Source: Marmoricola endophyticus | Lineage (GTDB): Bacteria > Actinomycetota > Actinomycetes > Propionibacteriales > Nocardioidaceae | Length of the DNA: 64,000 nt | Assembly (NCBI RefSeq): GCF_014644415.1 | Contig: NZ_BMKQ01000001.1 | Coordinates: forward strand, 2,233,556-2,297,555 | Direction: 5' to 3' | Shown: in pieces, positions 796-63,114 of the stretch | Layout: each line of letters begins with the position of its first letter | Position numbering within the stretch: the stretch's first letter is position 1 | Made by a program: the position numbers and the translations under genes | Notes under the pieces: generated by a model | Told to the model about the DNA's origin: nothing | Seen by the model: the letters and a program-made list of their open reading frames with translations, nothing else | Databases searched by the model: none

Positions 796-2157
796 TCAGG
801 GAGCAGTGCCGACGGGCAGCAGGACGACGAAGCGGGCGCCGCCGAGCTCCGCTCGCGACACCTGCACCGAGCCACCGTGGGCGCGGACGATCTCCTCGAC
901 GATGGCCAGCCCCAGCCCGCTCCCGCCGTCGTCCCTGGCCCGCGCCTCGTCGAGCCGGACGAACCGTTCAAAGATCCGCTCCCGGTCCTCCTCGGCGACG
1001 CCGGGGCCGTCGTCCTCGACGACGAGCTCGGCGCGGTCACCACGCTGCACGAGGGAGTACGACACGGTCGAGCGCGCGTGCCGCGCGGCGTTGTCGCCCA
1101 GGTTGCGCACGACCTGGGTCAGTGCCAGCTCGTCGCCACGGACCCGCACGGGCCCGACGCGCGAGGTGTCCACCCGGAGGGAACGGTCGGCGTCCGGCCG
1201 CCCTGCCGAGCCGTGCCGCACCCGGCCGGCGGTGGCGAGCACGAGGTCGTCGAGGTCGATCTCTCGTCGCTCGCGAGCCGCGCCACCGTCGTCGGTACGG
1301 GTCAGCACGAGCAGCTGCGCGACGAGCCGCTGCATGCGGGCGCCCTCGTCGAGCACGGTGTCGGCCAGCTCGCCCTCCGGCAGCGCACCGGGGTGTGCGC
1401 GCGCCACCTCGGCGGTCTGCCGGATGCTCGCCAAGGGTGAGCGCAGCTCGTGCGAGGCGTCCGCGACGAACTGTCGCTGCCGTACCCCGAACGCCTCGAG
1501 CCGGGCCAGCGTGCGGTTCACCGTCACGGCGAGCCGGTGGATCTCGTCGCCGGTCGGCGGCTCGGGAACCCGTCGCTGGAGCTTGTCGCCGGTGATCTGC
1601 TCCATCTCCCGCCGGATCCGCTCGACCGGGGTCAGGACCCTCGTCGCCACCGTCCACGTCGTGGCGGCGACCAGGAGGAGCAGCACCGGGACGCCGATCA
1701 GCAGGGGAGGGACCAGCGCGTGGGTCGAGTCCTCGACCTCCTCCAGCGAGACCGCGACGGTCACGTCGTACTCGCCGGCGTCCTCGGTGACGGCGAGGTA
1801 GTCGCTGTCGGCGCCGGGAAGGCGCACCACGTCGCCGTCCGACTCCGGGATCGGTTTCGTCAGGGGCTGCGAGGTCCGTACGACAGACCCCGCACGGTCG
1901 CTGACCTGCCAGACCTCGTCCTCGGGGTCGTCGTCGTCCTCGTCCTGCCGAGGCTGGGCCGGCACCCCGGAGCTCTCCACCTGGGCGGCGAGGGAGGCGG
2001 CCCGCTGCTCGGCACCGGTCTCCACCCCCTCGCGCAACGAGCCACGGACGAGGAGGACGAGGCTCACCGCTCCGGCGAGCAGGGCGAGCGCGACGACCAG
2101 GGTCGCCGCCAGCGTCGTCCGGGCGCGGAACGAGGCCGCCCGACGCCGCTCAGCCAC
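796..2157 (-). CDS. Two-component sensor histidine kinase, HAMP-HisKA-HATPase
   Basis: A 453-aa membrane kinase. TM1 lies near residues 15-35. An acidic extracytoplasmic sensor region follows, with a DEDDDDPEDE stretch, then TM2 near 165-185, HAMP, the HisKA motif DASHELRSPLASIR with the phospho-accepting His, and HATPase boxes (N box NLGDNAARHA, G1 DDGPGVAEEDRERIF, G2 GSGLGLAIVEEI). The GTG at 2157 was chosen because it overlaps the stop of the response regulator by 8 nt (GTGGCTGA), which implies translational coupling. A longer reading would run back into that gene. The signal sensed is not evident. The acidic loop could bind cations or cationic peptides, but that is a guess. Confidence 0.95.
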   Translation of the reverse strand: MAERRRAASFRARTTLAATLVVALALLAGAVSLVLLVRGSLREGVETGAEQRAASLAAQVESSGVPAQPRQDEDDDDPEDEVWQVSDRAGSVVRTSQPLTKPIPESDGDVVRLPGADSDYLAVTEDAGEYDVTVAVSLEEVEDSTHALVPPLLIGVPVLLLLVAATTWTVATRVLTPVERIRREMEQITGDKLQRRVPEPPTGDEIHRLAVTVNRTLARLEAFGVRQRQFVADASHELRSPLASIRQTAEVARAHPGALPEGELADTVLDEGARMQRLVAQLLVLTRTDDGGAARERREIDLDDLVLATAGRVRHGSAGRPDADRSLRVDTSRVGPVRVRGDELALTQVVRNLGDNAARHARSTVSYSLVQRGDRAELVVEDDGPGVAEEDRERIFERFVRLDEARARDDGGSGLGLAIVEEIVRAHGGSVQVSRAELGGARFVVLLPVGTAP

Positions 2158-2827
2158 CGTCGCTCCGCAGCAGGTAGCCGGCCCCGCGCAGGGTCGAGAT
2201 GGCCTCGCGGCCGAACGGCCGGTCGAGCTTGTTGCGCAGGTGACGGACGTACACCTCGACGATGTTCGGGTCCCCCTCGAAGTCGGCGTCCCACACGGCA
2301 TCGAGGATCTGACGCTTGGAGACCACCTCGCCGACGTGGCGGGCGAGGAACGCCAGCAGGGCGAACTCCCGAGCGGTCAGCTCGACCTCGACCTCGCCGC
2401 GGTGGACCCGGCGCGGCGCCGGGTCGATCCGAAGGTCCCCGACCTGCAGCACGGTGGGCCGCTCCCGCGCGCCGCGGCGCGCCACCGCCCGCAGCCTGGC
2501 CACGAGCACCGGGAAGGAGAACGGCTTCGTGAGGTAGTCGTCCGCCCCGGTGTCGAGACCCTCGACCTGGTCCCACTCGCCGTCCTTGGCCGTGAGCATG
2601 AGGACGGGTGTCCAGTTGCGCTCCGCTCTCAGCGTCTCGCAGACCTTGTAGCCGTTGATGCCGGGCAGCATCAGGTCGAGGACGATCGCGTCGTAGGAGT
2701 TCTCGCGAGCCATCCAGAGCCCGTCGGTCCCGTCGGGCGCGACGTCGACCGCGAAGCCCTCCGCCTCCAGGCCGATCCGCAGCGACCTCGCCAGCCTGAC
2801 CTCGTCGTCGACCACCAGCACCCGCAC
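2150..2827 (-). CDS. OmpR/PhoB-family response regulator
   Basis: A 225-aa regulator. The receiver domain has the acidic pair D7-D8, phospho-acceptor D51 (in VLDLMLPG) and K101 (in LTKPF). A winged-helix Trans_reg_C domain covers about residues 130-222 and includes the typical LTAREFALLAFLARH start and a VYVRHLRNKLD recognition region. The GTG at 2827 has a perfect AGGAGG 7 nt upstream (2835-2840). It is the first gene of a minus-strand operon with the overlapping kinase and probably the PepSY gene. Length and domain order are normal for the family. Confidence 0.96.
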   Translation of the reverse strand: MRVLVVDDEVRLARSLRIGLEAEGFAVDVAPDGTDGLWMARENSYDAIVLDLMLPGINGYKVCETLRAERNWTPVLMLTAKDGEWDQVEGLDTGADDYLTKPFSFPVLVARLRAVARRGARERPTVLQVGDLRIDPAPRRVHRGEVEVELTAREFALLAFLARHVGEVVSKRQILDAVWDADFEGDPNIVEVYVRHLRNKLDRPFGREAISTLRGAGYLLRSDGG

Positions 2828-2929
2828 CGCGACCCCTCCTGTCCGACCACGTCTGGCGCCAGTCTGAGGGGTGCGGGCTGAAGATCCGCTGAACGCGGGC
2901 ACGGGGGAGCCCGCCACCTCCCCGCCGGC

Positions 2930-3550
2930 TCAGTCGTGCAGCTCGGCGAGGGAGGCGACGTACCCCTCGGGTGCGGGGACGTCGCGCAGCCGCAGTGCGA
3001 GGAGCGGGCCGGGGTACGACAGCAGCGCCGCCGGCTCGTCGGCCGCGGTGACGCGTACCCCGCGCAGCCCGACCGTGATCCCGTCGCCGGTGGCCTTGAC
3101 GACCGCCTCCTTGCGGACCCAGGTGCGGCACAGCTCAGCGGGGGAGGCGGCGTGCTCCTCCTCGCCGAGGACCTCGCCGGCGATCGCCGGATCGGCGAAG
3201 CGCCGCGGGTGCTCGACGTCGAGCCCGGCCGCGGTCGCGGCGAGCGCCACGCCGACGACGCTGCCGCAGTGGGTGACCGACAGGTGCAAGCCGGTGCCCG
3301 GCGCCTCGGGGCGCCCGTGGTCGGTGGCGCGGCACAGGGGGCAGCGGCGCGTGACCTCGACGGTTCGCGGGTCGGCGCCGGTGGCCCTGGCGAGCGTACG
3401 GCGGAGCAGTACGGCCGCCGCGGTCCGCGCCGCGCGGTCCTCGGGACGGCGGTACCGCTCCGCCCGGCGTGCCTCGGCGGGGGAGAGCAGCGCGGCGTCC
3501 GCCGGGCCCAGGGACCGGGCGTCGGCCCAGGCGACCACGGGCTCGTCCAC
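2930..3550 (-). CDS. 4'-phosphopantetheinyl transferase (Sfp/AcpT superfamily)
   Basis: A 206-aa enzyme expected to move 4'-phosphopantetheine from CoA onto carrier-protein serines. Family motifs are visible: the metal-binding GLDVEHPRRF (compare G[VI]D[VI]E) near residue 113 and the signature WVRKEAVVKATG near 143-154. Upstream is LHLSVTHCG, corresponding to the WxSxSH-type region. The GTG start at 3550 follows TAGGCT at a 6-nt spacing, so a leaderless transcript is likely. It is head-to-head with the Pls-like synthetase, whose T domain needs exactly this modification. The 56-bp intergenic region suggests a shared promoter zone and a dedicated pairing. Confidence 0.93.
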   Translation of the reverse strand: MDEPVVAWADARSLGPADAALLSPAEARRAERYRRPEDRAARTAAAVLLRRTLARATGADPRTVEVTRRCPLCRATDHGRPEAPGTGLHLSVTHCGSVVGVALAATAAGLDVEHPRRFADPAIAGEVLGEEEHAASPAELCRTWVRKEAVVKATGDGITVGLRGVRVTAADEPAALLSYPGPLLALRLRDVPAPEGYVASLAELHD

Positions 3551-3606
3551 GCCGTGAGCCTAGGGATGTCGCCTGCCGTTCACCTGGTTCCGCTTCGATC
3601 GCCCGC

Positions 3607-6600
3607 GTGCCGCCCTCCCTGACGCCGTCCCTGCTCGCCGGCGACCGGGCACCGGCGCCGAGCACGCTGGCCGAGATCTTCTCCGAGACGGTGACGGACT
3701 TCCCCGACGCGCTGGCCATCGACAACGGGCGCGAGGTGCTGACGTACGCCGAGCTCGCCGACCGTGCGCAGGTGCTGGCCGAGCAGCTCGAGACGGCGGA
3801 CGTCGGACGCGGCGACAAGGTGGGCGTGCGGGTCAGCTCGGGGACCACCGAGCTGTACGTCGCGATCCTCGGCACCCTGCTGGCCGGGGCGGCGTACGTC
3901 CCCGTCGACGCCGACGACCCCGACGAGCGGGCACGGGTGGTCTTCGGCGAGGCCGCCGTCGCGGTGGTGGTCGGTGACGACCTGGTGCTCACCCCGCACG
4001 AGGACGGTCGCGGGGCGCACGGTGACGACGACCGCGCCCCGACGCCCGCGGACGACGCCTGGGTGATCTTCACCTCCGGCTCGACCGGTACGCCGAAGGG
4101 CGTCGCGGTGACCCACCGTAACGCGGCGGCCTTCGTCGACGCCGAGCGGCGCCTGTTCCTGCAGTCTGAGCCGGTCGGGCCCGGGGACCGGGTGATGGCC
4201 GGGCTCTCGGTGGCCTTCGACGCGAGCTGCGAGGAGATGTGGCTGGCCTGGGCGTACGGCGCCTGCCTCGTGCCGGCACCGCGGTCCCTGGTCCGCAGCG
4301 GCGTCGACGTCGGCCCCTGGCTGGAGGCCAACGACATCACCGTCGTCTCGACCGTCCCCACGCTGGTCGCGCTGTGGCCGCTGACCGCGCTGGAGCGGGT
4401 GCGGCTGCTGATCATGGGCGGCGAGGCGTGCCCGGCCGAGCTGGCGGCGCGGCTGCAGCGCGAGGGGCGCGAGGTGTGGAACACCTACGGCCCGACCGAG
4501 GCGACGGTCGTCGCCTGCGGGGCGCTGCTGGACGGCTCGGACCCGGTACGGATCGGGCTGCCGCTGGACGGCTGGGACCTCGCGGTGGTCGACGGCGACG
4601 GCAACCCGGTCGCCGCGGGGGAGGCCGGCGAGCTGATCATCGGTGGGGTCGGGCTGGCCCGCTACCTCGACCAGGAGCTGGACGCGGCGACGTACGCCCC
4701 GATGCCGACGCTGGGCTGGGACCGGGCGTACCGCTCCGGCGACGTGGTCCGCAACGACCCGGCCGGGCTGGTCTTCGGCGGCCGCGCCGACGACCAGGTC
4801 AAGCTGGGCGGGCGCCGGATCGAGCTCGGCGAGGTCGACGACCAGCTGCTGCGGCTCCCCGGGGTCGTCGCGGCGGCCGCCGCGGTGCGGTCGACCAGCA
4901 CCGGCAACACGCTGCTGGTCGGCTACCTGCGCACCGACGACGCCTTCGACGCCGCGGCGAGCCTCGACCTGCTCCGCGACCGCCTGCCCGCCGCGCTGGT
5001 GCCGCGACTCGCGCCGGTCGACGACCTGCCGACCCGGACGTCCGGCAAGGTCGACCGGGACGCCCTGCCGTGGCCGCTGCCCGGCAGCGCCGGCGGGACC
5101 GGGCTCGACGACGAGCTGGAGCAGTGGATCGCCGAGATCTGGCAGGCGGTGCTCGGGGCGCAGGTGAGCGGTGGGGGCGACGACTTCTTCGACTTCGGCG
5201 GCGGCTCGCTGACCGCCGCGCAGACCGTGGGCCGGCTGCGGGAGCGGTTCCCCGAGGTCGCGGTCGGCGACCTGTACGCCCACCCGACCGTGTCCGGCCT
5301 CGCCGCCTGCCTGCGCGAGCTGTCCGGCACGGTGACGAGGACCGACCGCGAGGTGCCGCCCGTACCCGTCAAGACCCAGGCCGGGCAGCTCGTGGCGCTG
5401 CTGCCGCTGCGGGCGCTGGCCGGGCTGCGCTGGCTCGCCTGGCTCGCCCTGGGCGGTCGCCTCGCGCGTGACCTGCTGGACGCGGCGTGGGCTCCCGCGC
5501 TGTCCTGGTGGCTGCTGGCACCGGCCGCGCTGGTGCTGCTCTCCGCGCCGGGCCGGATGCTGCTGGCCGCCGGTGTGGTGCGGCTGGTCCTGCGCCCGGT
5601 GACGCCCGGTCGGCACCCCCGCGGCGGCAAGGTCCACCTGCGGGTGTGGCTGGCCGGCCGCGTCCAGGACGAGCTGGCCGCGGTGTCGGTGGCCGGCGCG
5701 CCGTACCTCCTCTGGTACGCCCGCCTCCTCGGCGCCGAGGTCGGCCGCGACGTCGACCTGCACACGCTGCCGCCCGTCACCGGGCTGCTGCGGGTCGGTC
5801 CGGGTGCCGCGATCGAGCCCGAGGCCGACCTGTCGGGCACCTGGATCGACGGCGACACCTTCGTCGTCGGCGGGGTACGCGTGCGTCGCGGCGCCCGCGT
5901 CGGGGCCCGCAGCACGCTGGCCCCCGGTGCCGACGTCGGCCGAGAGGCGGAGGTGGCGCCGGGGTCGCTGGTCCTCGGCGAGGTGCCACCGGGGGAGTAC
6001 TGGTCGGGGGTCCCCGCCTCGAGGGTCAGCCGCTCCGCGCGCGGACCCTGGGACGACCGGCCGTCGCGCGGTCGCGGGTGGACCGCGGCGTACGCCGTCG
6101 CCGCGCTGGTGGTCGCCGCGCTCCCCGCGCTGGGCATCCTGGCCGGGCTGGCGGTCGTGGTCCCGTCGACGCTCGACGAGACGAGCCCGGGCGCCGCGCT
6201 GCTCGCCGCGCTGCCGCTGCTGCCGCTCGGCGCCCTGGTCGGGTACGCCGTCCTCGCCCTGCTCGTCGTGCTCGTGGTGCGGCTGCTCGGGATCCGCCTC
6301 GCCCCCGGCCACGTGCCGGTCCGGTCGTGGCGGGCGCTGCGCGTGTGGACCACGTTCCGGGTGCTCGACGACGCGCGTACCTGGCTGTTCCCGGTCTACG
6401 CGGCCGCGCTCACCCCGGCCTGGCTGCGGCTGCTCGGCGCCCGGATCGGCACGGGCGTCGAGGCCTCGACGGTGCTGCTCGTCCCGCGGCTCGCCCAGGT
6501 CGACGACCACGCGTTCCTCGCCGACGACACGCTGCTCGGCTGCTACGAGCTCGGCGGCGGCTGGCTGCGCGTGGACGAGGTACGGATCGGCAAGCGGGCC

Positions 6601-7467
6601 TTCCTCGGCAACTCCGGCATGGCCGCGGTGGGCCGCAAGGTGCCCAAGCGTTCGCTGGTCGCCGTGCTCTCCGCGGCCCCGCAGCGCGGCGAGGCGAAGA
6701 AGGGCTCGTCCTGGGTGGGCAGCCCGCCGACGCGGCTGCGTCGTACGGCGGGCGAGACCGACTCCAGCCGCACCTACGACCCGCCGACCCGGTTGAAGGT
6801 GCTGCGCGCGCTCGTCGAGACGGCACGCGTGGTGCCGCTGCTGGTCTCCGTGCTCTGGTACGCCGTCACCGCCGCCGTGCTGGTCGTGCTCTTGGAGCGG
6901 CACCTCTGGCTGGCCGTCGTCCTCTGCGGCCCGGTGCTCGCACTGGCCGGGGCGCTCGCCGCGGCGCTGAGCGTGCTCACCAAGGCGCTGCTGGTCGGCC
7001 GGCACCGCTCGGGCGAGCACCCGCTGTGGTCGTCGTTCGTGTGGCGCAACGAGCTGGCCGACACTTTCACCGAGGTGCTGGCGGCGCCCTGGTTCGCCAC
7101 CGTCGTGCCGGGCACGGTCGCGCTCAACGTCTGGCTGCGGGCGCTCGGCGCCCGGATCGGCCGCGGGGTGTGGTGCGAGACGTACTGGCTGCCGGAGACC
7201 GACCTGGTCGAGCTCGGCGACGGGTCGGTGGTCAACCACGGCTGCGTCGTGCAGACCCACCTGTTCCACGACCGGGTGCTGGCCCTGGACCCCGTACGCC
7301 TGCGGCGCGGCGCCACCCTCGGCCCCAACTCCGTGGTGCTGCCCGCGGCGACGATCGGGCGCCATGCGACGATCGGGCCCGCCTCGCTGGTGATGCGGGG
7401 GGAGGAGGTCCCGAGCCGCACCCGCTGGCTGGGCAACCCGATCGGACCGTGGGAGGGCCCCGAGTGA
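3607..7467 (+). CDS. Pls/PosA-type single-module NRPS (A-T-membrane-LbH)
   Basis: A 1286-aa protein. The adenylation domain (about 15-495) has A3 IFTSGSTGTPKG (near 154-165), A4 FDAS with D205, NTYGPTE, YRSGD, GRADDQVKLGGRRIELGEVD, and catalytic K481 in TSGKVDRD. The T domain (about 500-575) has the phosphopantetheine site S534 in FGGGSL. No condensation or thioesterase domain is present. Several hydrophobic segments then alternate with left-handed beta-helix (acyltransferase-like hexapeptide) blocks near 730-830, 945-1040 and 1190-1280. This is the architecture of epsilon-poly-lysine synthetase (Pls) and relatives, which polymerise one amino acid by isopeptide bonds at the membrane. The GTG at 3607 fits the domain start. 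The product is unknown, but the A-domain code reads lysine-like. Confidence 0.92.
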   Translation: MPPSLTPSLLAGDRAPAPSTLAEIFSETVTDFPDALAIDNGREVLTYAELADRAQVLAEQLETADVGRGDKVGVRVSSGTTELYVAILGTLLAGAAYVPVDADDPDERARVVFGEAAVAVVVGDDLVLTPHEDGRGAHGDDDRAPTPADDAWVIFTSGSTGTPKGVAVTHRNAAAFVDAERRLFLQSEPVGPGDRVMAGLSVAFDASCEEMWLAWAYGACLVPAPRSLVRSGVDVGPWLEANDITVVSTVPTLVALWPLTALERVRLLIMGGEACPAELAARLQREGREVWNTYGPTEATVVACGALLDGSDPVRIGLPLDGWDLAVVDGDGNPVAAGEAGELIIGGVGLARYLDQELDAATYAPMPTLGWDRAYRSGDVVRNDPAGLVFGGRADDQVKLGGRRIELGEVDDQLLRLPGVVAAAAAVRSTSTGNTLLVGYLRTDDAFDAAASLDLLRDRLPAALVPRLAPVDDLPTRTSGKVDRDALPWPLPGSAGGTGLDDELEQWIAEIWQAVLGAQVSGGGDDFFDFGGGSLTAAQTVGRLRERFPEVAVGDLYAHPTVSGLAACLRELSGTVTRTDREVPPVPVKTQAGQLVALLPLRALAGLRWLAWLALGGRLARDLLDAAWAPALSWWLLAPAALVLLSAPGRMLLAAGVVRLVLRPVTPGRHPRGGKVHLRVWLAGRVQDELAAVSVAGAPYLLWYARLLGAEVGRDVDLHTLPPVTGLLRVGPGAAIEPEADLSGTWIDGDTFVVGGVRVRRGARVGARSTLAPGADVGREAEVAPGSLVLGEVPPGEYWSGVPASRVSRSARGPWDDRPSRGRGWTAAYAVAALVVAALPALGILAGLAVVVPSTLDETSPGAALLAALPLLPLGALVGYAVLALLVVLVVRLLGIRLAPGHVPVRSWRALRVWTTFRVLDDARTWLFPVYAAALTPAWLRLLGARIGTGVEASTVLLVPRLAQVDDHAFLADDTLLGCYELGGGWLRVDEVRIGKRAFLGNSGMAAVGRKVPKRSLVAVLSAAPQRGEAKKGSSWVGSPPTRLRRTAGETDSSRTYDPPTRLKVLRALVETARVVPLLVSVLWYAVTAAVLVVLLERHLWLAVVLCGPVLALAGALAAALSVLTKALLVGRHRSGEHPLWSSFVWRNELADTFTEVLAAPWFATVVPGTVALNVWLRALGARIGRGVWCETYWLPETDLVELGDGSVVNHGCVVQTHLFHDRVLALDPVRLRRGATLGPNSVVLPAATIGRHATIGPASLVMRGEEVPSRTRWLGNPIGPWEGPE

Positions 7468-8765
7468 CGGCTGGAGCGTCTGCGGGCACCGACGCCTACG
7501 TCCCCGACCACGGCGACGCGTCCTTCTCGGTCACGCACTACGCCCTCGACCTGGCCTACCGCCCGTCGGGGAACGGGCTGTCCGGCACCGCGATGCTGAC
7601 CTGCCGCGCGGAGGAGGAGCTCGGCTCGCTGAGCCTGGACCTGCACCACCTGACGCCCTCGAAGGTGCGGGTCGACGGCCGGGCGCCGGCGAAGTTCACC
7701 GCCCGCCGCGGCCGGCTGCGGATCACCCTGGCCCGACCGGTCGCGGCCGGCGCGGAGCTCACCGTGTTCGTGAAGTACGCCGGCAACCCCCGCCCCGTCC
7801 GCAAGCGGCACCTGGGCGAGGCCGGCTGGGAGGAGCTGACCGACGGCGTCATCGTGGCCAGCCAGCCGCACGGCGCGCCGTCGTGGTTCCCGTGCAACGA
7901 CCGGCCCGACGACAAGGCGACGTACGACGTCTCGCTCAGCGTCCCCGCCGAGTACCACGTCGCCGGCAACGGGCCCGCCGGTCGGCCGTCGCGGTCGGGC
8001 GCCACCCGGACCTGGAGGTTCGCGATGGACGAGCCGATGGCGACGTACCTCGCGACGCTGCAGGTGGGCCGCTACGTCGTCCACGAGCAGGACGGCCCGG
8101 TGCCGATGAGCGTGGTCGCGCCGGCCGACGTGGGTGGACCGGACTTCGACGCCTCGTTCGGCAGGCAGCCGGAGATGATGGCGGCCTACGTCGAGCGGTT
8201 CGGGGCGTACCCGTTCTCCTCCTACACCTCCGTGATCACCGACGACGACCTCGAGATCCCGCTGGAGAGCCAGTCGCTGTCGACGTTCGGCCGCAACTTC
8301 GTCTCGGCCGACTGGAGCCGCGAGCGGCTGGTCGCCCACGAGATGGCGCACCAGTGGTTCGGCAACGCCGTCACGCTGAGGCACTGGCGCGACATCTGGC
8401 TGCACGAGGGTTTCGCCTGCTACGCGGAGTGGCTGTGGTCGGAGGCCTCCGGGCGGGGTACGGCGGCCTCCCACGCCGCCGAGCACCACGCCCGCCTGGC
8501 CGCGCAGCCGCAGGACCTGCTGCTCGCCGACCCCGGCCCGGACCTGATGTTCGACGACCGCGTCTACAAGCGCGGCGCGCTGCTGCTGCACTCGCTGCGC
8601 ACCCGGGTCGGCGACCAGCGGTTCTTCGACCTGCTGCGCAGCTGGGTCGCCGCCCACCGCGGCGGCTCGGTCACCAGCGACGACTTCGTGGCGCACTGCG
8701 GCGGTGACGTCGCCGACCTGTTCGACGCCTGGCTGCGCCAGGAGGCGCTGCCGGCCTTGCCCTGA
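7464..8765 (+). CDS. M1-family zinc aminopeptidase (short form)
   Basis: A 433-aa protein with an N-terminal beta-sandwich and a thermolysin-like domain carrying H292-E-x-x-H296 (HEMAHQWFGN) and E315 exactly 18 residues after the second His, the M1 zinc site. The canonical GxMEN exopeptidase motif is not seen. The equivalent place reads LEIPLESQSLS. The C-terminal helical repeat domain of long M1 enzymes is missing, as in many actinobacterial members. The GTG start overlaps the synthetase stop by 4 nt (GTGA), so the two are translationally coupled. M1-type enzymes that degrade epsilon-poly-lysine have been described in producers, so a role in product turnover or self-protection is plausible but inferred. 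Confidence 0.92.
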   Translation: MTAGASAGTDAYVPDHGDASFSVTHYALDLAYRPSGNGLSGTAMLTCRAEEELGSLSLDLHHLTPSKVRVDGRAPAKFTARRGRLRITLARPVAAGAELTVFVKYAGNPRPVRKRHLGEAGWEELTDGVIVASQPHGAPSWFPCNDRPDDKATYDVSLSVPAEYHVAGNGPAGRPSRSGATRTWRFAMDEPMATYLATLQVGRYVVHEQDGPVPMSVVAPADVGGPDFDASFGRQPEMMAAYVERFGAYPFSSYTSVITDDDLEIPLESQSLSTFGRNFVSADWSRERLVAHEMAHQWFGNAVTLRHWRDIWLHEGFACYAEWLWSEASGRGTAASHAAEHHARLAAQPQDLLLADPGPDLMFDDRVYKRGALLLHSLRTRVGDQRFFDLLRSWVAAHRGGSVTSDDFVAHCGGDVADLFDAWLRQEALPALP

Positions 8766-8785: not shown

Positions 8786-8822
8786 GGCCTCGACGCGCTC
8801 GCTAGCGCTCGCTGCTCGACCA
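8786..8822. repeat. 37-bp palindromic REP-like element at convergent gene ends
   Basis: This 37-bp imperfect palindrome (arms like CTCGACGCGCTCGCT and its complement) is 35/37 identical to the reverse complement of 31796-31832. It lies between the ends of the M1 peptidase and the HIT gene, and runs into the HIT coding region, supplying its last six codons and TAG stop. The fold and position suggest a bidirectional terminator or a REP/BIME-like dispersed element. Confidence 0.85.
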
Positions 8823-9239
8823 TCCGACGGCGGCGGCCAGTCTCGCCCCGGTGGCCCGGATCGCGTCCGCGTCGCCGCCCTGGTCGGGCAGCCACGGCGG
8901 GGTGAGGGTGTCCGAGGCGTACCGCGGGATCACGTGCAGGTGGAAGTGGAACACCGTCTGCCAGGCCGCAGCGCCGCAGCAGTTGAGCAGGTTGACGCCG
9001 TCCGCGCCCAGCTCGGCCTTGGCCACGCCGGCGATGCGCTGGGCCGCCAGGGTCACCGCGGTCAGGTCGTCCGGGCCGATCTCGAGCAGGTCGGTGCTGT
9101 GCCGCTTCGGCACCACCAGCAGGTGGCCGGTGGTGGCGGGGTTGATGTCCATGAAGGCGTACGTCGTCTCGTCCTCCGCGACGCGCGCACTGGGGACGTC
9201 GCCCGCCACGATCGCGCAGAACAGGCAGCTCTCACTCAT
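8802..9239 (-). CDS. HIT-family nucleotide hydrolase/transferase
   Basis: A 145-aa HIT protein with the catalytic triad motif HFHLH (H98, H100, H102) followed by V. The N-terminal CLFCAI pair of cysteines is typical of bacterial Hint-type purine-nucleotide phosphoramidases. The ATG at 9239 has TAGAGT at a 6-nt spacing, a likely leaderless promoter. Residues 140-145 (WSSSER) and the stop codon come from a dispersed 37-bp repeat, so the C-terminus looks acquired rather than conserved. It is divergent from the nitrilase-family gene, with 93 bp between the two starts. Confidence 0.95.
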   Translation of the reverse strand: MSESCLFCAIVAGDVPSARVAEDETTYAFMDINPATTGHLLVVPKRHSTDLLEIGPDDLTAVTLAAQRIAGVAKAELGADGVNLLNCCGAAAWQTVFHFHLHVIPRYASDTLTPPWLPDQGGDADAIRATGARLAAAVGWSSSER

Positions 9240-9332: not shown

Positions 9333-10118
9333 ATGCGTCTCGCACTCGCCCAGGTGACCACCGGCCCGGACCCGCGGGCCAACCTCGAGATCGTCCGGGA
9401 GCAGGCTGCCCGGGCCGCGGGGGAGGGCGCGGACCTGGTCGTCCTGCCCGAGGCGACGATGCGCTGCTTCGGCGGCGGTCGTCTCGACGAGGTCGCCGAG
9501 CCGGTGGACGGTCCGTGGGCCGACGCCGTCGCGGCCGCCGCGACCGAGCACGGCGTCACCGTCGTCGCCGGGATGTTCACGCCCAACGACGACGGGCGCG
9601 TGAGCAACACCCTGCTGGTCGCGTCCCCCGGCGGTGAGCGGACGTCGTACGACAAGGTGCACCTCTACGACGCCTTCGGCTTCAAGGAGTCCGACACGGT
9701 CGCACCGGGCTCGGAGCCCGTCACCGTCGAGATCGCGGGGACGACGGTCGGGCTGGCCGTCTGCTACGACGTCCGCTTCCCCGGCCTGTTCACCGCGCTG
9801 GCGCGCGAGGGGGCCGAGGTGGTGCTGCTGCCGGCGTCGTGGGGCGCCGGGCCGAGCAAGGTGGACCAGTGGCGGACCCTCGTCCGGGCCCGCGCGCTGG
9901 ACGCGACCGTCGTCGTGGCCGCGGCGGGGCAGGCGCCGCCACCCGGCGCGACCGGGAGCGCGCCCACGGGTGTCGGGCACTCGATGGTCGTCGGCCCGAC
10001 CGGCCAGGTGCTCGGCGAGCTCGGGGACGAGCCGGGCCTCCTCGTCGTCGACGTCGACGGCGACCAGGTCGCGAAGGCGCGAGCGGCCCTGCCGGTCCTC
10101 GCGAACGCGCGGTTCTGA
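9333..10118 (+). CDS. Carbon-nitrogen hydrolase (nitrilase superfamily; Nit-type amidase)
   Basis: A 261-aa protein with the complete Glu-Lys-Cys triad: E40 (VVLPEATMR), K108 (SYDKVHLYD) and C144 (GLAVCYDVRFPG). The CYDVRFP context resembles the Nit1/deaminated glutathione amidase branch, which repairs metabolites, but omega-amidase-like specificities cannot be excluded. Length is normal for the family. The ATG at 9333 follows CACGAT at 6 nt, a weak version of the -10 spacing used by many neighbours. It is transcribed away from the HIT gene and separated by about 100 bp from the ABC operon downstream. Confidence 0.9.
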   Translation: MRLALAQVTTGPDPRANLEIVREQAARAAGEGADLVVLPEATMRCFGGGRLDEVAEPVDGPWADAVAAAATEHGVTVVAGMFTPNDDGRVSNTLLVASPGGERTSYDKVHLYDAFGFKESDTVAPGSEPVTVEIAGTTVGLAVCYDVRFPGLFTALAREGAEVVLLPASWGAGPSKVDQWRTLVRARALDATVVVAAAGQAPPPGATGSAPTGVGHSMVVGPTGQVLGELGDEPGLLVVDVDGDQVAKARAALPVLANARF

Positions 10119-31880: not shown

Positions 31881-33737
31881 ATGGACAGACTGCTGATCGC
31901 CAACCGCGGCGAGATCGCGCTGCGGGTGGCGCGGACGGCCGAGCGGCTGGGCATCGACGCGGTGATGATCCACACCGCGGCCGACGAGCACGCTCCGCAC
32001 GCCGGGGCCTCGGAGTACGTCGCGGAGGTGTCGTCGTACCTCGACATCGACGCCGTCGTCGACGCAGCCGTGCGCAGCGAGGCGGACGCGGTGCACCCGG
32101 GCTACGGGTTCCTCTCCGAGCGGGCGGCGTTCGCCTCGGCCCTGGAGGCCGCCGGCATCACCCTGGTCGGACCCAGCGCGGCCGTGATGGACGCGATGGG
32201 GCGCAAGGACGCTGCCCGCGAGATCGCCGTCGCGGCAGGTGTGCCGGTGGTGCCGTCGTACTCGCTGAGCCAAGCCACCGCGGACCCGTCCGCGCTTTCT
32301 TACCCGGTGCTGGTCAAGGCCGCGGCCGGTGGCGGCGGCAAGGGCATGCGGACCGTCCGCTCGGCCGCCGACCTCGCCGAGGCCGTCGAGGCCGCCAAGC
32401 GCGAGGCGCGCTCGGCGTTCGGCGACGACGCGATGCTGATCGAGAAGTACGTCGAGCACGGCCGCCACGTCGAGGTGCAGGTGATGGGCGACGCCCACGG
32501 CACGGTGCTGCACCTGTGGCACCGCGACTGCTCCGCCCAGCGGCGGCACCAGAAGGTGGTCGAGGAGGCCCCGGCGCCGGACCTGCCGCCCGGTGTCGAG
32601 GACACGGTGCTGACCTCGGCGGTCGCGCTCGCCCAGCAGGTCGGCTACACCGGCGCGGGGACCGTGGAGTTCCTGCTGGACACCGACACCGGGGAGGTCT
32701 ACTTCCTGGAGATGAACACCCGCCTCCAGGTCGAGCACCCGGTCACGGAGGCGATCACGGGCCTCGACCTCGTCGAGCTGCAGCTGCGGGTCGCCGACGG
32801 TGAGCCGATCGGCCTCACCCAGGAGGACGTGCGCTGCGAGGGCCACGCGATGGAGGCCCGGGTGTACGCCGAGGACGCCTGGCACGGCTTCCTCCCGCAG
32901 GCCGGCACCGCGACGGTGGTCCGCTGGCCCGGGGGCGTGCGCGTCGACCACGCGCTCGGGTCCGGGCAGGAGGTCAGCACCGGGTTCGACCCGATGCTGG
33001 GCAAGGTCGTGGCGCACGCCGACGACCGTGAGCAGGCCCGCGACCTGCTCGTCCAGGCGCTGGACCGCACCGCCATCCTCGGGCTGACCACCAACACCGG
33101 GTTCCTCCGCGCCCTGGTGGACTCGCCCGAGTTCGCCGCCGGGCCGGTCGACACCGCCTGGCTGGACACCTCGCCGCTGACGGCTCCCGACGACTCGGGC
33201 GCCCGCGCGCTGGCGGGGGTGGTGCTCGACCAGGAGCTCCGGTCGGCACCTGCTGCCCCCTGGCAGCCGGACGGCTTCCGGCTCGGTGGGCCGCGCGGCC
33301 CGCTGGTGGAGGACGGGCGGGTGCTGGAGTTCTCCGGGTGGGTCGCCGCCCCGGGAGCGCCGGACGCCGACGGGCTCGTCCGCACCGGGATCCTCGGCGT
33401 CGGTGACGGTGTCGTGCAGCGCACCCGCAGCGGCACCGAGGTGGTCGTGTCCGGCCAGCGCTTCCTGCTCGACCGGGCCGACCCGTTCCGTCGCACGACG
33501 ACCGCGGGCGACGGCACCCTGACCGCCCCGATGCCGGGCACGGTGCTCGCGGTCTCGGTCGCCGAGGGGGACACCGTCGAGGAGGGGCAGACGCTCGGGG
33601 TGCTGGAGGCGATGAAGATGGAGGTCGCGCTGAAGGCGGCGTACGCCGGAACGGTCGCCGAGGTCGGCGCCGCCGCCGGGGAGCAGGTCGCCCTGGGCGC
33701 GGTGCTGTTCGTGGTGGAGGAGGCCGAGCATGCGTGA
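31881..33737 (+). CDS. Acyl-CoA carboxylase biotinylated alpha subunit (BC-BCCP)
   Basis: A 618-aa protein. The biotin carboxylase part (about 1-445) has HPGYGFLSERA, the ATP-grasp KAAAGGGGKGMR loop, and EMNTRLQVEHPVTE. A linker follows, then a biotinyl domain at the C-terminus with biotin Lys K579 in LEAMKMEV. It carboxylates biotin with ATP and bicarbonate for the beta subunit upstream. AGGAG lies 7 nt before the ATG at 31881. It is separated from the beta gene by a repeat array but overlaps the HMG-CoA lyase gene by 8 nt. Confidence 0.95.
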   Translation: MDRLLIANRGEIALRVARTAERLGIDAVMIHTAADEHAPHAGASEYVAEVSSYLDIDAVVDAAVRSEADAVHPGYGFLSERAAFASALEAAGITLVGPSAAVMDAMGRKDAAREIAVAAGVPVVPSYSLSQATADPSALSYPVLVKAAAGGGGKGMRTVRSAADLAEAVEAAKREARSAFGDDAMLIEKYVEHGRHVEVQVMGDAHGTVLHLWHRDCSAQRRHQKVVEEAPAPDLPPGVEDTVLTSAVALAQQVGYTGAGTVEFLLDTDTGEVYFLEMNTRLQVEHPVTEAITGLDLVELQLRVADGEPIGLTQEDVRCEGHAMEARVYAEDAWHGFLPQAGTATVVRWPGGVRVDHALGSGQEVSTGFDPMLGKVVAHADDREQARDLLVQALDRTAILGLTTNTGFLRALVDSPEFAAGPVDTAWLDTSPLTAPDDSGARALAGVVLDQELRSAPAAPWQPDGFRLGGPRGPLVEDGRVLEFSGWVAAPGAPDADGLVRTGILGVGDGVVQRTRSGTEVVVSGQRFLLDRADPFRRTTTAGDGTLTAPMPGTVLAVSVAEGDTVEEGQTLGVLEAMKMEVALKAAYAGTVAEVGAAAGEQVALGAVLFVVEEAEHA

Positions 33738-52065: not shown

Positions 52066-52914
52066 TCACTCCTGGGAGGCGCGGAACGGGTCGGCGGGGT
52101 AGACGCCGAGCATCGTGATGTCGGTGGTGAAGAAGGCCAGCTCCTCCAGCGCGCGGGACAGGCCGGGCTCGTCGGGGTGACCGTCCACCTCGGCGAGGAA
52201 CTGGGTGCCGACGAACCGGCCGTCGACCATGTAGCTCTCCAGCTTGGTCATGTTGACGCCGTTGGTCGCGAACCCGCCGAGGGCCTTGTAGAGCGCGGCC
52301 GGCAGGTTGCGGACGTTGAACACGAACGACGTCACCGTCGGCCTGGCGCCGAGAGGGGCGGCGACGAGGTCGCGCGAGAGCACGACGAAGCGCGTGGTGT
52401 TGTGGTCCGCGTCCTCGACGTCCTCGCGGAGCACCTGCAGCCCGTAGATCCCGGCCGCCATCGGCGGGGAGATCGCGGCCAGCGTCGGGTCGCCGGCCTC
52501 GGCGACCTCGCGGGCGGCCCCGGCGGTGTCTCCCGAGATCACCGGCGTCAGGCCGAGCTCGCGGATCACGTTGCGGCACTGGCCCAGCGCGTGCACGTGG
52601 CTGTGCGCGGCGGTGATCTGCTCGATCCGCGCGCCCGGGACCGCCATCAGCGAGAACCGGATCCGCAGGAAGTGCTCGCCGACGATCCGCAGCGGGGAGG
52701 TGGGCAGGAAGTGGTGGATGTCGGCGACCCGGCCGGCGAGCGAGTTGTCGATCGGGATCATCGCCAGGTCCGCCTCGCCGCCCTCGACGGCGGCGAAGAC
52801 GTCCTCGAACGAGGCGCAGGGGACCGACTCCCAGTCCGGGTAGTGCTCGGCACAGACCGTGTGGGAGTTCGAGCCCGGCTCTCCCTGGTAGGCGATCCGG
52901 TTCACCCGCCGCAT
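52066..52914 (-). CDS. pheA: Prephenate dehydratase
   Basis: A 282-aa enzyme with the dehydratase domain (IAYQGEPGSNSHTVCAEHYP, IPIDNSLAGRVADIHHFL, DTAGAAREVAEAG, HNTTRFVVLSRD with the catalytic Thr of the TRF motif) and a C-terminal ACT domain (FVFNVRNLPAALYKALGGFATNGVNMTKLESY) that binds phenylalanine for feedback control. No chorismate mutase domain is present. ATG 52914 is used. GTG 52938, eight codons earlier, is an alternative with a GATAGT hexamer 5 nt before it. Phenylalanine biosynthesis, stand-alone here. Confidence 0.95.
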   Translation of the reverse strand: MRRVNRIAYQGEPGSNSHTVCAEHYPDWESVPCASFEDVFAAVEGGEADLAMIPIDNSLAGRVADIHHFLPTSPLRIVGEHFLRIRFSLMAVPGARIEQITAAHSHVHALGQCRNVIRELGLTPVISGDTAGAAREVAEAGDPTLAAISPPMAAGIYGLQVLREDVEDADHNTTRFVVLSRDLVAAPLGARPTVTSFVFNVRNLPAALYKALGGFATNGVNMTKLESYMVDGRFVGTQFLAEVDGHPDEPGLSRALEELAFFTTDITMLGVYPADPFRASQE

Positions 52915-53058
52915 GCTGTCACGCCGCTGCCGCAGCACCGCGCACTATCTCACCGCCACGATCCGCACAAGTCTGGTCTTCGTCAATCTTTTCTGGTCGG
53001 GTGTCCTCACCATTGGTCGAACTCTCGGCCTCCTCACCCACAGGAGGAAGTTCCTCAG

Positions 53059-54366
53059 ATGCACCTGCCTCTCGCCACCCGGGCGGCCACCGCGGTCGCC
53101 GCCCTCTCGCTCAGCCTCGCCGGCGCCGTCACCGGCGCCGCCCAGGCCTCACCGTCCTCGCCGGGCGACTCCGGCCCGTCCGGCGTCGACCACTACGCGG
53201 CGAGCGCGGCCGCGGACCACTCCGCCTCCGCGGACCGCCTCGACGACATCCTCGCCAAGCTCCCGAAGGACTTCGCGCAGCGGCGCGACGCCGCTCGCGA
53301 GCGCTTCGGCATCGACCGCTCACCCGCGGAGCAGATCCTCGACGGCAAGGTCCAGCAGGCCGCCGGCGCGACCGAGGCCGATGCGATCGACCCGACGCAG
53401 TACCAGTGCGCGCCCACCAAGCTGGACGGCTACGTCGACTCGATCCTCGCCGACGTCGACCCCAACGACCTCTTCGTGCTGAGCCTGACCGGGGCGCTGG
53501 ACGTGCCGACGTACGACGCGATCCTGTACGGCACCCCGACCGACGCCGACCACCAGCTGCTGCCCGCCTACAAGGCGCCGCTGACGTCGACCTTCGGCTA
53601 CGCCCAGCGGTTCTGGGACGTCCGGCTCGACGACGTGCAGCTGATGGCGATGCACGGCGAGATGATGACCGACGTGAACCGGGTGGCCCGGGTCGTGGAG
53701 TACCTCTACGACGTCGGCCCGGCCGACGCCACCGACATCGCGAGCGACATCGTCGCGATCGTCAAGGGCGACAAGGCGCTCAAGAACGGGAAGAACCCGA
53801 TCTTCACCCTCAACGCGTTCGCGTTCTCCGGCGAGGGCGAGACGGACCCGGTGATCCGGCGGCTGAAGGACAAGATGGTCTTCGGCGACGGGATCCTCTC
53901 CGCGCTGAAGTCGATCGGCCTGGGTGGCGCGAACGGCGTCGGCCCCAAGGCCGTGCTCGGCCACGAGATGTCGCACCACGTGCAGTACGAGGACGACCTC
54001 TTCGACTCCGAGCTCACCGGCGCGGAGGCCACCCGTCGTACCGAGCTGATGGCCGACGCGTTCGGGACGTACTTCGTGACCCACAAGAAGGGCCTCGGGC
54101 TCAACCCGAAGCAGGTGCTGGTCGCCGGGCAGTCGTTCTACGACGTCGGTGACTGCCAGTTCGACAGTCCGGGCCACCACGGCACGCCGAACCAGCGACG
54201 CGCGGCGTCGGCGTTCGGGGCGGCCCAGGTGGCGTACGCGAACAACCCGAACACGGTGATGCCCAGCCTGAAGCTGGACCGGGCCTTCGAGAAGGCGCTG
54301 CCGACCCTGACGGCGCCCGACGCACCGACCGCACCGCAGGCGTACGCCGCGACGGCGAAGCAGTAG
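53059..54366 (+). CDS. Secreted zinc metallopeptidase (HEMSH type)
   Basis: A 435-aa protein with a signal peptide (hydrophobic about 10-27, cleavage near AAQAS), a spacer, and a catalytic part with GHEMSHHVQYE (HExxH) and, about 25 residues on, RTELMADAFG, a Glu/Asp-bearing helix that fits a third ligand. The region between resembles neutral zinc metallopeptidases whose family I cannot name more exactly. The AGGAGG-rich ribosome site (53042-53050) lies 8-11 nt before the ATG. An in-frame extension far upstream antisense to pheA is not real. Confidence 0.85.
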   Translation: MHLPLATRAATAVAALSLSLAGAVTGAAQASPSSPGDSGPSGVDHYAASAAADHSASADRLDDILAKLPKDFAQRRDAARERFGIDRSPAEQILDGKVQQAAGATEADAIDPTQYQCAPTKLDGYVDSILADVDPNDLFVLSLTGALDVPTYDAILYGTPTDADHQLLPAYKAPLTSTFGYAQRFWDVRLDDVQLMAMHGEMMTDVNRVARVVEYLYDVGPADATDIASDIVAIVKGDKALKNGKNPIFTLNAFAFSGEGETDPVIRRLKDKMVFGDGILSALKSIGLGGANGVGPKAVLGHEMSHHVQYEDDLFDSELTGAEATRRTELMADAFGTYFVTHKKGLGLNPKQVLVAGQSFYDVGDCQFDSPGHHGTPNQRRAASAFGAAQVAYANNPNTVMPSLKLDRAFEKALPTLTAPDAPTAPQAYAATAKQ

Positions 54367-60043: not shown

Positions 60044-60893
60044 GGCCGGGAGCGCCGGCTGGCGCCCGGCGGTGGTGGCGCTGGACATCGACGGCACCCT
60101 GCTGGTTCCCGATCCCGACGGCATGTCGGTCGAGCAGGCGACCGACGCCGTGCGCGGCGCCGTGCTGGACGCGGCCCGTGCGGGTGCCCACGTCGTCCTC
60201 TCCTCCGGCCGGGCGCCGCTGAGCATGGCGGGCATGGCCGACGACCTCGGGCTGACGGCGCTCGTCGCCGAACAGACCGGCGAGCGGCTGCACGTGGTGG
60301 CCTCCAACGGCTCGGTCGTCTTCCGCCACGCGCCGATGGAGGTCGTGCACGAGGTGACCTTCGACGCCACCGAGGCCGTGCGGACGGTGCTCGAGCACGT
60401 GCCGGGCGCAGCGGTCGCGGTCGAGGAGCACGGGGTGGGCTACCGCGTGAACCGGATGTTCCCGCCCGGCGAGCTGGACGGCGAGCTGATCGTCTCCGAG
60501 CTGGCCGAGATGCGGCTCGAGGACGTCAGCCGGGTGATCATCCGCGACCCGGACTCCACCTCGGAGGACTTCGTCCGCCTGGCCGAGATGCTCGGTCTGC
60601 GCGGCACCAACTTCTTCATCGGCTGGACCGCCTGGCTCGACCTGGCGCCGGAGGGCACCAGCAAGGCGACCGGGCTGGAGTGGGCCTGCGCCGAGCTCGG
60701 CGTGGCGCGGGAGGACGTGCTGGCCATCGGCGACGGCCGCAACGACTCCGAGATGCTGGCCTGGGCCGGTCGGGGCGTGGCGATGGGCCAGGCGCCCGAC
60801 GTGGTGAAGGCGGCGGCCGACGACGTGGCCCTGCCCGTGGGCGAGGACGGCGCCGCGGTCGAGCTGCGGCGCTGGTTCCCCGCGGGTGCCTGA
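60036..60893 (+). CDS. HAD-superfamily phosphatase (Cof-type), first of three
   Basis: A 285-aa protein with HAD motif [11 protein letters not shown] (nucleophile Asp), motif II LSSGR, a lysine in SKATGLEWA (motif III) and motif [18 protein letters not shown] Cof-type cap lies between about 95 and 200. The substrate is unknown, probably a sugar or cofactor phosphate. The ATG overlaps serS by 8 nt (ATGGCTGA), and its own stop overlaps the next gene by 8 nt. A second similar enzyme lies 850 bp downstream and a third at the end of the window. Confidence 0.93.
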
Positions 60894-61212
60894 CCCGGCG
60901 GTCACCCCCGACGGGCGGTACGTCGTCGTCCGCGGCCGGCTCTGGCGCCGCTCCGACCCGTCGCTGGACCGCGACGAGCGCGAGCGGCTGGTCGCCGAGC
61001 TGATGTCGGCCCGCTCGGCGAAGGGCGCGGCCCGGCGCTCGGGTGACGAGGCTGCGGTCGAGGTGGCGCGCCGCCGGGTGCAGGCGGCCAAGGAGGCGCT
61101 CGGCGAGCGCGGACCGGTCTGGTGGGACGACGGTGCCCCGGACCTCACGCGTCACCTGGCGCGGACGACGTCGTACGCCGAGTGGTGGGCGAGCGTCGAG
61201 GACGGCTCCTGA
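60886..61212 (+). CDS. Hypothetical protein, 108 aa
   Basis: A small protein with the pattern GRYVVVRGRLWRRSDPSLD, then RERLVAELMSARSAKGAARRSGDE, and a C-terminal GPVWWDDGAPDLTRHLA. Related small proteins occur widely in actinobacteria and proteobacteria, but I know no function. The charged, helical middle suggests nucleic acid binding, though this is weak. The GTG at 60886 overlaps the HAD stop by 8 nt, so it is translated as part of the serS operon. Confidence 0.85.
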   Translation: MPDPAVTPDGRYVVVRGRLWRRSDPSLDRDERERLVAELMSARSAKGAARRSGDEAAVEVARRRVQAAKEALGERGPVWWDDGAPDLTRHLARTTSYAEWWASVEDGS

Positions 61213-61225
61213 GAGGATCGCGGGC

Positions 61226-61744
61226 GTGATCGACCTGCCGTACTCGCCCCTGCAGACCCCGCTGGTGGCCGTCGAGCCGCTGGACCTCGCCGCGATCGAG
61301 GACCTGCTCTCCTCGGAGACCGACCCGTCGCGGCGCTGCGACGACTGGCACCCGGACTTCCCGCGCGAGGACGACCTGGACGGGGTGGGGGCGACGACCG
61401 ACCTCACCGGGTGGTCCTCGCGGCAGGTGCGCCGTCTCGCCGACCGGCTCGTCGTGGGGACGATCGGCTTCTTCGGCCCTCCCGAGGACGACGAGGACCC
61501 CGAGGTCGAGGTCGGCTTCGGACTGGTCGGGCAGGCGCGCGGCCAGGGGCTGATGACCGAGGCGCTCGGCGCGGTGCTCACGCTGACCGACCAGGTCGGC
61601 GTCCGGGTGCGTGCGGGGACGCAGCGCTCGAACGAGGCCTCGCTGGCGCTGCTGCGCTCGGCCGGGTTCGTCGAGCGCGGGTCGGGCGGACCGGAGGACG
61701 CCGAGCGCGAGGTGGTCCTGGTCCGCGCGGTGCCGGCGTCGTGA
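61226..61744 (+). CDS. GNAT-family N-acetyltransferase
   Basis: A 172-aa protein with GNAT features: VGTIGFFGPP (strand), EVEVGFGLVGQARGQGLMTEALGAV (acetyl-CoA loop QARGQGLMTEAL), and RAGTQRSNEASLALLRSAGFVERG, the standard RimJ/RimL-type ending (N-x-x-S-x-x-x-L-x-x-x-G-F). Substrate unknown. The GTG at 61226 follows GAGGAT at 7 nt, a weak form of the local -10. The stop overlaps the GTG of the next HAD gene (GTGA). Confidence 0.92.
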   Translation: MIDLPYSPLQTPLVAVEPLDLAAIEDLLSSETDPSRRCDDWHPDFPREDDLDGVGATTDLTGWSSRQVRRLADRLVVGTIGFFGPPEDDEDPEVEVGFGLVGQARGQGLMTEALGAVLTLTDQVGVRVRAGTQRSNEASLALLRSAGFVERGSGGPEDAEREVVLVRAVPAS

Positions 61745-62532: not shown

Positions 62533-62619
62533 CCGTCTTGTCCCTTCCCACGGGGAAAGGAACCGATCCGCCTGCGCGGCGGTGTCGGATGCCGCACACT
62601 CGGCGCAAGGGGGTACGCC

Positions 62620-63114
62620 ATGACGTTCACGCTCGACGAGCCCGTCCGGGTCACCCGACGGCTGCAGTACGCCGGCGTCGCCGTGCTGGTCGTCGTGGTG
62701 GCGCTCGGGGTGCTGGTGTGGCGGGCCACGCGGCCGAACCTCGACCCCGACACCGCCGCGCGCACGGTGGCCGGCACGACAGTGCTCGTCTACACCGAGG
62801 AGTGGGGTGGCGATTACTCCACCGTCGGTGGCACCGGTCGTCTCGAGGTGCTGGAGGGCGGGTGTCTCGGGCTGTCGGACGGATCGCTGTTCGTGTTCCC
62901 GTACGGCGCCAAGGCGTTCGAACGGGACGGGGAGGTCGCCGTCGCGATCGGGACGAAGGTCGTCCGACCCGGGGACGTGGTCGGTATCGGTGGCGGCCGG
63001 CCGGTGCCGATCGAGGACTTCGGCGGCAACCTCGCCGAGCACGTCCCGCCCGGGTGCGGGGCGCGCGAGGCCACGAGCGGCATCGAGATGTACTTCCCGA
63101 CCGGCGGCAGCTGA
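62620..63114 (+). CDS. Single-pass membrane protein, hypothetical
   Basis: A 164-aa protein with one TM near residues 17-36 and a C-terminal extracytoplasmic beta domain of about 115 aa: GRLEVLEGGCLGLSDGSLFVFPYGAKAFERDGEVAVAIGTKVVRPGDVVGIGGG. Two cysteines (GGCLG and PGCGA) could form a disulfide. I do not recognise a family. It is preceded by 87 bp without a gene. The sequence GTACGCC lies just before the ATG, with GGGGG as a poor ribosome site. It ends 3 bp from the convergent HAD gene. Confidence 0.75.
   Translation: MTFTLDEPVRVTRRLQYAGVAVLVVVVALGVLVWRATRPNLDPDTAARTVAGTTVLVYTEEWGGDYSTVGGTGRLEVLEGGCLGLSDGSLFVFPYGAKAFERDGEVAVAIGTKVVRPGDVVGIGGGRPVPIEDFGGNLAEHVPPGCGAREATSGIEMYFPTGGS

Follow-up and report, generated by a model that had tools for sequence, protein, structure and literature searches.

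We analysed a window of 64,000 nucleotides (nt) of Marmoricola endophyticus DNA (contig NZ_BMKQ01000001.1, positions 2,233,556 to 2,297,555; coordinates below count from the first letter of the window). The host genome is 3.66 Mb in size, and the GC content of the window is 69-76% in 4-kb steps. A gene for an Sfp-type 4'-phosphopantetheinyl transferase (PPTase) stands head-to-head with pls, which encodes a Pls/PosA-family synthetase with an adenylation (A) and a thiolation (T) domain, and pls is followed on its own strand by a gene for an M1 metallopeptidase (Table 1). The scores for the three gene and domain calls exclude chance, and the locus is the known pls-pldII operon, intact, in a Nocardioidaceae genome. 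From the computed family membership, binding pocket, modelled fold, coupling, synteny and missing export signal, we infer the product, the reaction steps, and the place and role of the peptidase. Very probably this is an operon for epsilon-poly-L-lysine (epsilon-PL) with an activating PPTase alongside, in which the M1 enzyme would be cytosolic and self-protective.

Table 1. Features of the pls locus, in window coordinates (aa, amino acids; TM, transmembrane helix; LbH, left-handed beta-helix)
Feature	Coordinates	Strand	Basis
Sfp-type 4'-phosphopantetheinyl transferase, 206 aa	2930..3550	-	PF01648, 37.5 bits (cut-off 25)
pls, Pls/PosA-family synthetase, 1286 aa, A-T-(TM pair + LbH)x3	3607..7467	+	TIGR02353; 7wew match
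Adenylation domain, pocket DAESIGTVVK	3679..5067	+	Profile and structure-relative matches; alignment
Thiolation (carrier) domain, expected phosphopantetheine site S534 in GGGSL	5122..5313	+	PF00550, 47.4 bits, residues 506-569
Pls/PosA C-terminal polymerisation domain	5386..7443	+	TIGR02353; hydropathy; AlphaFold2; Foldseek
Three predicted beta-helix blocks	about 5737-6030, 6445-6738, 7159-7440	+	AlphaFold2 model
His1218 in third block (QTHLFHDR), candidate catalytic residue	7258..7260	+	Conservation, from which the role is inferred
GTGA, 4-nt overlap of M1 start and pls stop	7464..7467	+	Sequence
Two-domain M1 metallopeptidase (PldII-like), 433 aa	7464..8765	+	PF01433 and PF17900, both over cut-off

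Several comparison sets were used. The 80-locus set holds the best 80 of 580 confirmed pls loci and is therefore not a random sample; its gene contents were listed for the 78 loci longer than 8 kb, and M1 genes were counted in all 80. The survey loci are those from our genome survey with a Pls at least 50% identical over 1,000 residues (44, or 43 without the window's own copy, L001). The family survey covers 37 genomes, nine with pls and 28 without. Loci that we call S. albulus-like, after Streptomyces albulus, come from one genus, in which seven of 392 genomes have an A domain 80-94% identical to the solved lysine enzyme 7wew (E 1e-240 or better). TIGR02353, the model of the Pls/PosA family, was over its cut-off in 73 of 296 class genomes and in 19 of 58 relatives, including six of 24 of the host genus. 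Among the best 80 of 580, the nearest Pls proteins are from Nocardioides and Ornithinimicrobium (68-72% identity), with very near records possibly excluded. Published papers are cited for those portions of their text that were available.

The synthetase and its predicted product

The C-terminal part of the synthetase, residues 594-1279, scores 674.8 bits on TIGR02353 (Pls/PosA family non-ribosomal peptide synthetase), whose cut-off is 423.1, and the match covers nearly the whole model (positions 3-695 of 695). An initial annotation of this DNA had likened the layout to that of Pls, and the profile search agrees with it. The same annotation had described a PPTase head-to-head with an A-T synthetase that lacks condensation and thioesterase domains; the coordinates hold, PF01648, PF00501 and PF00550 were all matched, and a Pfam scan of the synthetase, which also found the hexapeptide repeat PF00132, gave no condensation or thioesterase family. 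The carrier serine S534 is invariant in a 10-row alignment. We chose GTG 3607 as the start because it is the first in-frame start lying outside the PPTase gene, with the stop at 7467; an earlier start at 3469 was rejected since it falls within that gene, and no ribosome site was seen ahead of the chosen one.

The closest solved A domain is that of the epsilon-poly-L-lysine synthase 7wew (E 4e-179; 63% identity over 476 columns). The binding pocket, placed by motif anchors that we take to follow GrsA numbering, reads DAESIGTVVK (residues 205, 206, 209, 248, 269, 271, 293, 301, 302 and 481). This pocket is found in 98 of 99 aligned rows, window and 7wew included, the exception being L074 with DFECLSVVSK. 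L074, a distant Pls/PosA member in a genome of the host's order (G052), had no M1 match within its 18-kb stretch.

It could be argued that the synthetase is a Pls/PosA member that polymerises another diamino acid, such as ornithine, diaminobutyrate, diaminopropionate or beta-lysine. The family does contain such enzymes (PMC10522769), among them PosA, the delta-poly-L-ornithine synthetase of Acinetobacter baumannii, which belongs to the same family and differs in its ornithine substrate, and L074 places a divergent pocket within the same order. We nevertheless regard this as highly unlikely, for the window pocket is identical to that of 7wew. At the position occupied by Met218 in PosA and by Phe in the diaminopropionate enzyme, lysine enzymes carry Ala (PMC10522769), and the window residue is Ala206. 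The three other synthetases compared in PMC8117764 also differ in gene context from the pls-peptidase operon. Epsilon-PL thus remains the predicted product, and the likeness to Pls of S. albulus extends to the A-T order and six C-terminal helices in three pairs (PMC10522769), to the pocket DAESIGTVVK, and to a pldII coupled by 4 nt (PMC4361855). The difference lies in the A domain, at 63% identity to 7wew, and in a separate clade.

In the C-terminal domain, hydropathy (19 residues, threshold 1.4) predicts six segments that form three pairs (595-615 and 626-649, 824-857 and 859-905, 1065-1084 and 1085-1114). Four further segments pass the same threshold, of which one lies at 1157-1175 and the other three fall within the A domain. 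An AlphaFold2 model of residues 591-1286 (mean pLDDT 91.9, from an 81-row alignment) has three beta-helix stretches, each preceded by a pair of long helices, so that the membrane segments and three helix blocks noted earlier reappear in the predicted structure. The best Foldseek matches of this model were hexapeptide-repeat serine acetyltransferases, along with other transferases of that repeat class, all of them weak (best E 7e-5), and among the 50 matches listed the template modelling (TM) score to the query was at most 0.17. The C-terminal domain of PosA has been modelled with three left-handed beta-helices (PMC10522769); the three-block picture is therefore confirmed rather than new.

His1218, in the third block, is His in all rows of a 10-row alignment that combines five lysine-type members with five divergent ones (L074, L034, L045, L046 and L019), and in 96 of 98 rows of a wider alignment, the other two having gaps. 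Q1216, D1205, E1197 and E1149 are likewise conserved in 10 of 10 rows, among further residues across all three blocks; His719 and His1221 are not conserved in that alignment. This pattern points to the third block and suggests His1218 as a candidate catalytic residue. As of 2023 there was, according to PMC10522769, no structural information on the polymerisation domain, and His1218 would thus offer one testable residue in a domain without a published structure.

TIGR02353 domains also lie in open reading frames of about 820-1190 aa (L034, L045 and L046, and places in G141, G109, G238 and G280), reaching three copies in one genome (G141). Such frames are too small for A and T domains plus this one, so the polymerisation domain appears to occur without an A domain.

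The coupled M1 peptidase

The protein encoded behind pls passes the cut-offs of both M1 domains, PF01433 and PF17900, and its gene starts with GTG at 7464, in a 4-nt overlap with the TGA end of pls, in agreement with the GTGA coupling first noted. The zinc site is complete (H292-E293-xx-H296 and E315), and with E268 and Y368 it is invariant in an 80-row alignment, from which L117 was omitted as its contig ends within M1. The AlphaFold2 model has a pLDDT of 95.6, and the closest solved structures are those of a two-domain M1 of Deinococcus radiodurans (6ifg and 6a8z; TM 0.87-0.90), which shares the fold and a length of about 430 aa at 30-31% identity. We know of no link between that enzyme and polymer turnover.

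The pairing with pls is strongly conserved. In all loci of the 80-locus set M1 lies downstream of pls on the same strand, and in 75 its start falls within -34 to +100 nt of the pls stop (-4 in 30, -1 in 16, 0 to 50 in 19, 51 to 100 in four, and overlaps of -10 to -34 in six), distances that depend on our choice of starts; the remaining five exceed 500 nt. In these five, from Williamsia and Tsukamurella (L110, L113, L124, L125 and L128), 0.56-2.2 kb separates pls from M1, so that the coupling is broken there. M1 is present in 43 of the 44 survey loci, or 42 of 43 without the window's own copy. Relatives with at least 55% identity occur in 9/9 family genomes with pls versus 0/28 without; in the latter the top M1 matches reached 43% across almost the full protein and 46% across 204 residues. 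Of 60 genomes sampled from the class, ten gave an M1 match at E 1e-100, and all ten matches adjoin pls by coordinates; G073, G079 and G109 of that sample have TIGR02353 over its cut-off and no M1 at this threshold.

The same pairing is known from characterised producers. Of the two enzymes that degrade epsilon-PL in S. albulus, Pld and PldII, the latter is the main one, translationally coupled to pls and self-protective (PMC9223678); its gene shares 4 nt with pls there (PMC4361855), and PldII resembles the window M1 in standing behind pls with that overlap. We take PldII to be of M1 type because S. albulus-like loci carry an M1 behind pls, in seven of seven cases (L176-L182). These enzymes are 42-45% identical to that of the window, and their overlap with pls is 4 nt in six loci, with a 13-nt gap in L182. 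Corynebacterium variabile, likened here by description only, also has pls in an operon with a peptidase gene, the product being proven by heterologous expression (PMC8117764).

A general aminopeptidase that merely sits in the operon, without acting on the polymer, could also account for the M1 gene. The 31% identity to the Deinococcus structures fits this, as do a second M1 in the host genome (G000:C1:1488136-1489425, 38% identical to the pls-coupled one) and a genome, G195, with pls and no M1 nearby. Against it, M1s of the high-identity clade turned up only in company with pls, and the corresponding enzyme of S. albulus breaks down epsilon-PL (PMC9223678). A bystander role therefore seems to us very improbable, and we favour an enzyme that acts on epsilon-PL.

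Where it would do so is suggested by its N-terminus. In all seven S. albulus-like loci M1 opens with a twin-arginine signal (for example RRALIRGAALLPFAA), called with what we presume to be the usual motif, and the 12-residue hydropathy of these signals is 1.64-1.97. These M1s, which stand in for PldII, thus differ from the window M1, which has no such signal and no hydrophobic stretch (highest 19-residue hydropathy 1.19). No export signal was found in the M1 of the window and the 80 loci, with a maximum 12-residue hydropathy of 1.28 from the chosen starts, a scan that began far upstream in L110 and L113. A start-free scan of the same proteins, begun 60 nt before the pls stop or, where the gap was long, 150 nt before the expected M1 start, likewise gave no signal (maximum 1.31). 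A bare arginine-pair (RR) pattern is present in four of the 80 rows (L109, L126, L148 and L149), with no hydrophobic stretch. No M1 signal was found in the 42 scored loci outside the S. albulus-like group, ten of which (L035-L044) share a genus with the S. albulus-like loci; six loci without an M1 or Pls match could not be scored. These calls rest on hydropathy and RR pattern scans. With no export signal in this lineage, its M1 most likely works in the cytosol, and the published exterior PldII seems, to judge from these sequences, to be an exception among the loci scored.

The PPTase and neighbouring genes

The window PPTase fits both GxDxE and WxxKEAxxK, which we take to be the motifs of Sfp-type enzymes. 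D111, E113, W144, E148 and K152 are invariant in a 14-row alignment of the window and 13 of the 20 pls-neighbouring PPTases, to which it is 24-35% identical. The host genome encodes two PF01648 proteins. The other is a 117-aa holo-acyl carrier protein synthase (AcpS; 177.5 bits, cut-off 107), so the window PPTase is the sole Sfp-type enzyme found in the genome. Sfp-type PPTases occur in 8/9 family genomes with pls versus 3/28 without (Fisher p 3.5e-5, not strict as the genomes are related). In seven of the eight family genomes with both, the PPTase adjoins pls-M1, six times convergent behind M1 and head-to-head in the window. It is present in at least 20 of the 80 loci, each time convergent behind M1. 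The PPTase thus goes with pls in the family; the head-to-head placing is seen only in the window, and the position is not conserved.

The PPTase might instead stand beside pls by chance and serve another non-ribosomal peptide synthetase (NRPS) of the genome. None of the 20 PPTase-bearing loci of the 80-locus set shares the head-to-head placing, and a 3,410-aa frame with three carrier domains, probably an NRPS, lies elsewhere (G000:C1:2556025-2562468). Mere chance is unlikely in our view, given the PPTase next to pls-M1 in most of the family genomes with both and behind M1 in at least a quarter of the 80 loci, and with AcpS as the genome's other PF01648 protein. This does not make the PPTase exclusive to Pls. 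Of the five carrier domains in the host genome one belongs to Pls, three sit in the 3,410-aa frame and the last is in a frame of 101 aa; a dedicated PPTase was rejected on account of those outside Pls. Being the only non-AcpS PF01648 enzyme of a genome with such an NRPS-like frame, the window PPTase is probably not dedicated to Pls. The initial annotation had joined the three genes into a set for synthesis, activation and turnover, a reading that is largely borne out; the pls-M1 pair stands as conserved, and the PPTase fits less well, being probably shared and not fixed in position. In the literature, a text search of the C. variabile paper (PMC8117764) gave no mention of the term phosphopantetheinyl, and the available text of PMC4361855 has a phosphopantetheinyl transferase in a gene-ontology list.

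On the - strand, the PPTase, a response regulator (2150-2917) and a histidine kinase (796-2301) are consecutive (796-3550), with the regulator frame 12 nt behind the PPTase, and the three may form one operon. The two-component system was rejected as a conserved part because the regulator homologue is absent from L083-L086; a weak 106-residue homologue in L087 lies far from pls, which also counts against it. MprA/B acts on pls in S. albulus, according to a review (PMC8506220). Two genes downstream of M1 were also rejected as parts of the system, namely a HIT-like gene by our reading (8802-9239) and a CN-hydrolase (9333-10118), whose NIT homologues occur in three listed loci, in none directly behind M1. 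Elsewhere in the window, a tRNA-Val called by ARAGORN (32909-33002) is probably false, as it lies inside a biotin carboxylase reading frame (31881-33737), and two long reading frames without a Pfam match at 1e-5 (52177-54366 and 60616-63042) may, given the GC content, be antisense frames of real genes.

Proposed mechanism and implications

In the mechanism that we propose, the PPTase would attach phosphopantetheine to S534 of the carrier domain, and the A domain would adenylate L-lysine and then load it there as a thioester. The membrane-anchored C-terminal domain, with its three beta-helix blocks and six helices, could then link the alpha-carboxyl of the bound lysine to the epsilon-amine of an acceptor and extend the chain, the epsilon-amine attacking the lysyl thioester on S534 under this domain. 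The coupled M1 would cut the polymer. By our reasoning a free alpha-amine stands beside each scissile carbonyl of epsilon-PL, so every link resembles an aminopeptidase substrate, and a two-domain M1 without the extra domains of larger M1s could therefore act inside the chain. A cytosolic enzyme of this kind would protect against polymer that stays in, or returns to, the cell interior.

Several observations weigh against this reading. Over its whole length the window Pls shares no more than 51-53% identity with four S. albulus-like proteins, in an alignment that omitted L170-L173 as shorter versions of L176-L179, and in a quick tree it falls outside their clade, in which the six placed S. albulus-like Pls join 7wew, away from the window. 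That tree took six of the seven S. albulus-like genomes, two by shorter copies (L174 and L175), left out G700, and gave long-branch warnings for L074, the 7wew clade, L105 and L115. G195 (L056 and L184; contig G195:C32) has a Pls 59% identical to that of the window, but the roughly 8 kb downstream of it showed no M1. No PPTase was found in the stretch covered in 60 of the 80 loci; the PPTase matches of three family genomes with pls (G016, G021 and G028) are each flagged with one internal stop, and a profile search detected no Sfp-type PPTase in G027, which has pls. In S. albulus PldII is reported to lie outside the membrane (PMC9223678), whereas the window M1 has no signal, and loss of both Pld and PldII altered, per the review PMC8506220, neither production nor polymerisation degree. 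Within the library searched, we found no epsilon-PL report for Nocardioides, nor any for Nocardioidaceae, which agrees with the earlier remark that the host may not be known as a producer.

The operon could also be silent in this host. C. variabile, with a functional pls, gave no polymer in the culture conditions used (PMC8117764), and pls is patchy in the genus, as the six of 24 genomes over the cut-off indicate. All three frames are open and keep the motifs named above, and we judge silence somewhat unlikely.

Whether the arrangement holds more broadly is, in our estimation, evenly balanced: for most lysine-type Pls of the Actinomycetes, a cytosolic, endo-acting coupled M1 may guard epsilon-PL, with the Tat-exported (twin-arginine) PldII exceptional, and together with an Sfp-type PPTase, whose presence in Nocardioidaceae tracks that of pls, the pair may make up a self-contained transferable module. 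If so, the polymer, or part of it, would reach the cytosolic face in synthesis or return there, and M1 would police the inside. A cytosolic majority of M1s bears on the conflict between the review cited above (PMC8506220) and a CRISPR interference study that reported longer chains and lower self-tolerance (PMC9223678). The unsignalled M1, the link of an Sfp-type PPTase to pls and the conservation of His1218 are new relative to the available portions of the published accounts. With this locus a Nocardioidaceae host joins the predicted producers of a polymer that serves as a food preservative, and the loci assembled here, one synthetase family and one coupled enzyme with or without an export signal, provide a comparison set for understanding where polylysine is made, held and destroyed.

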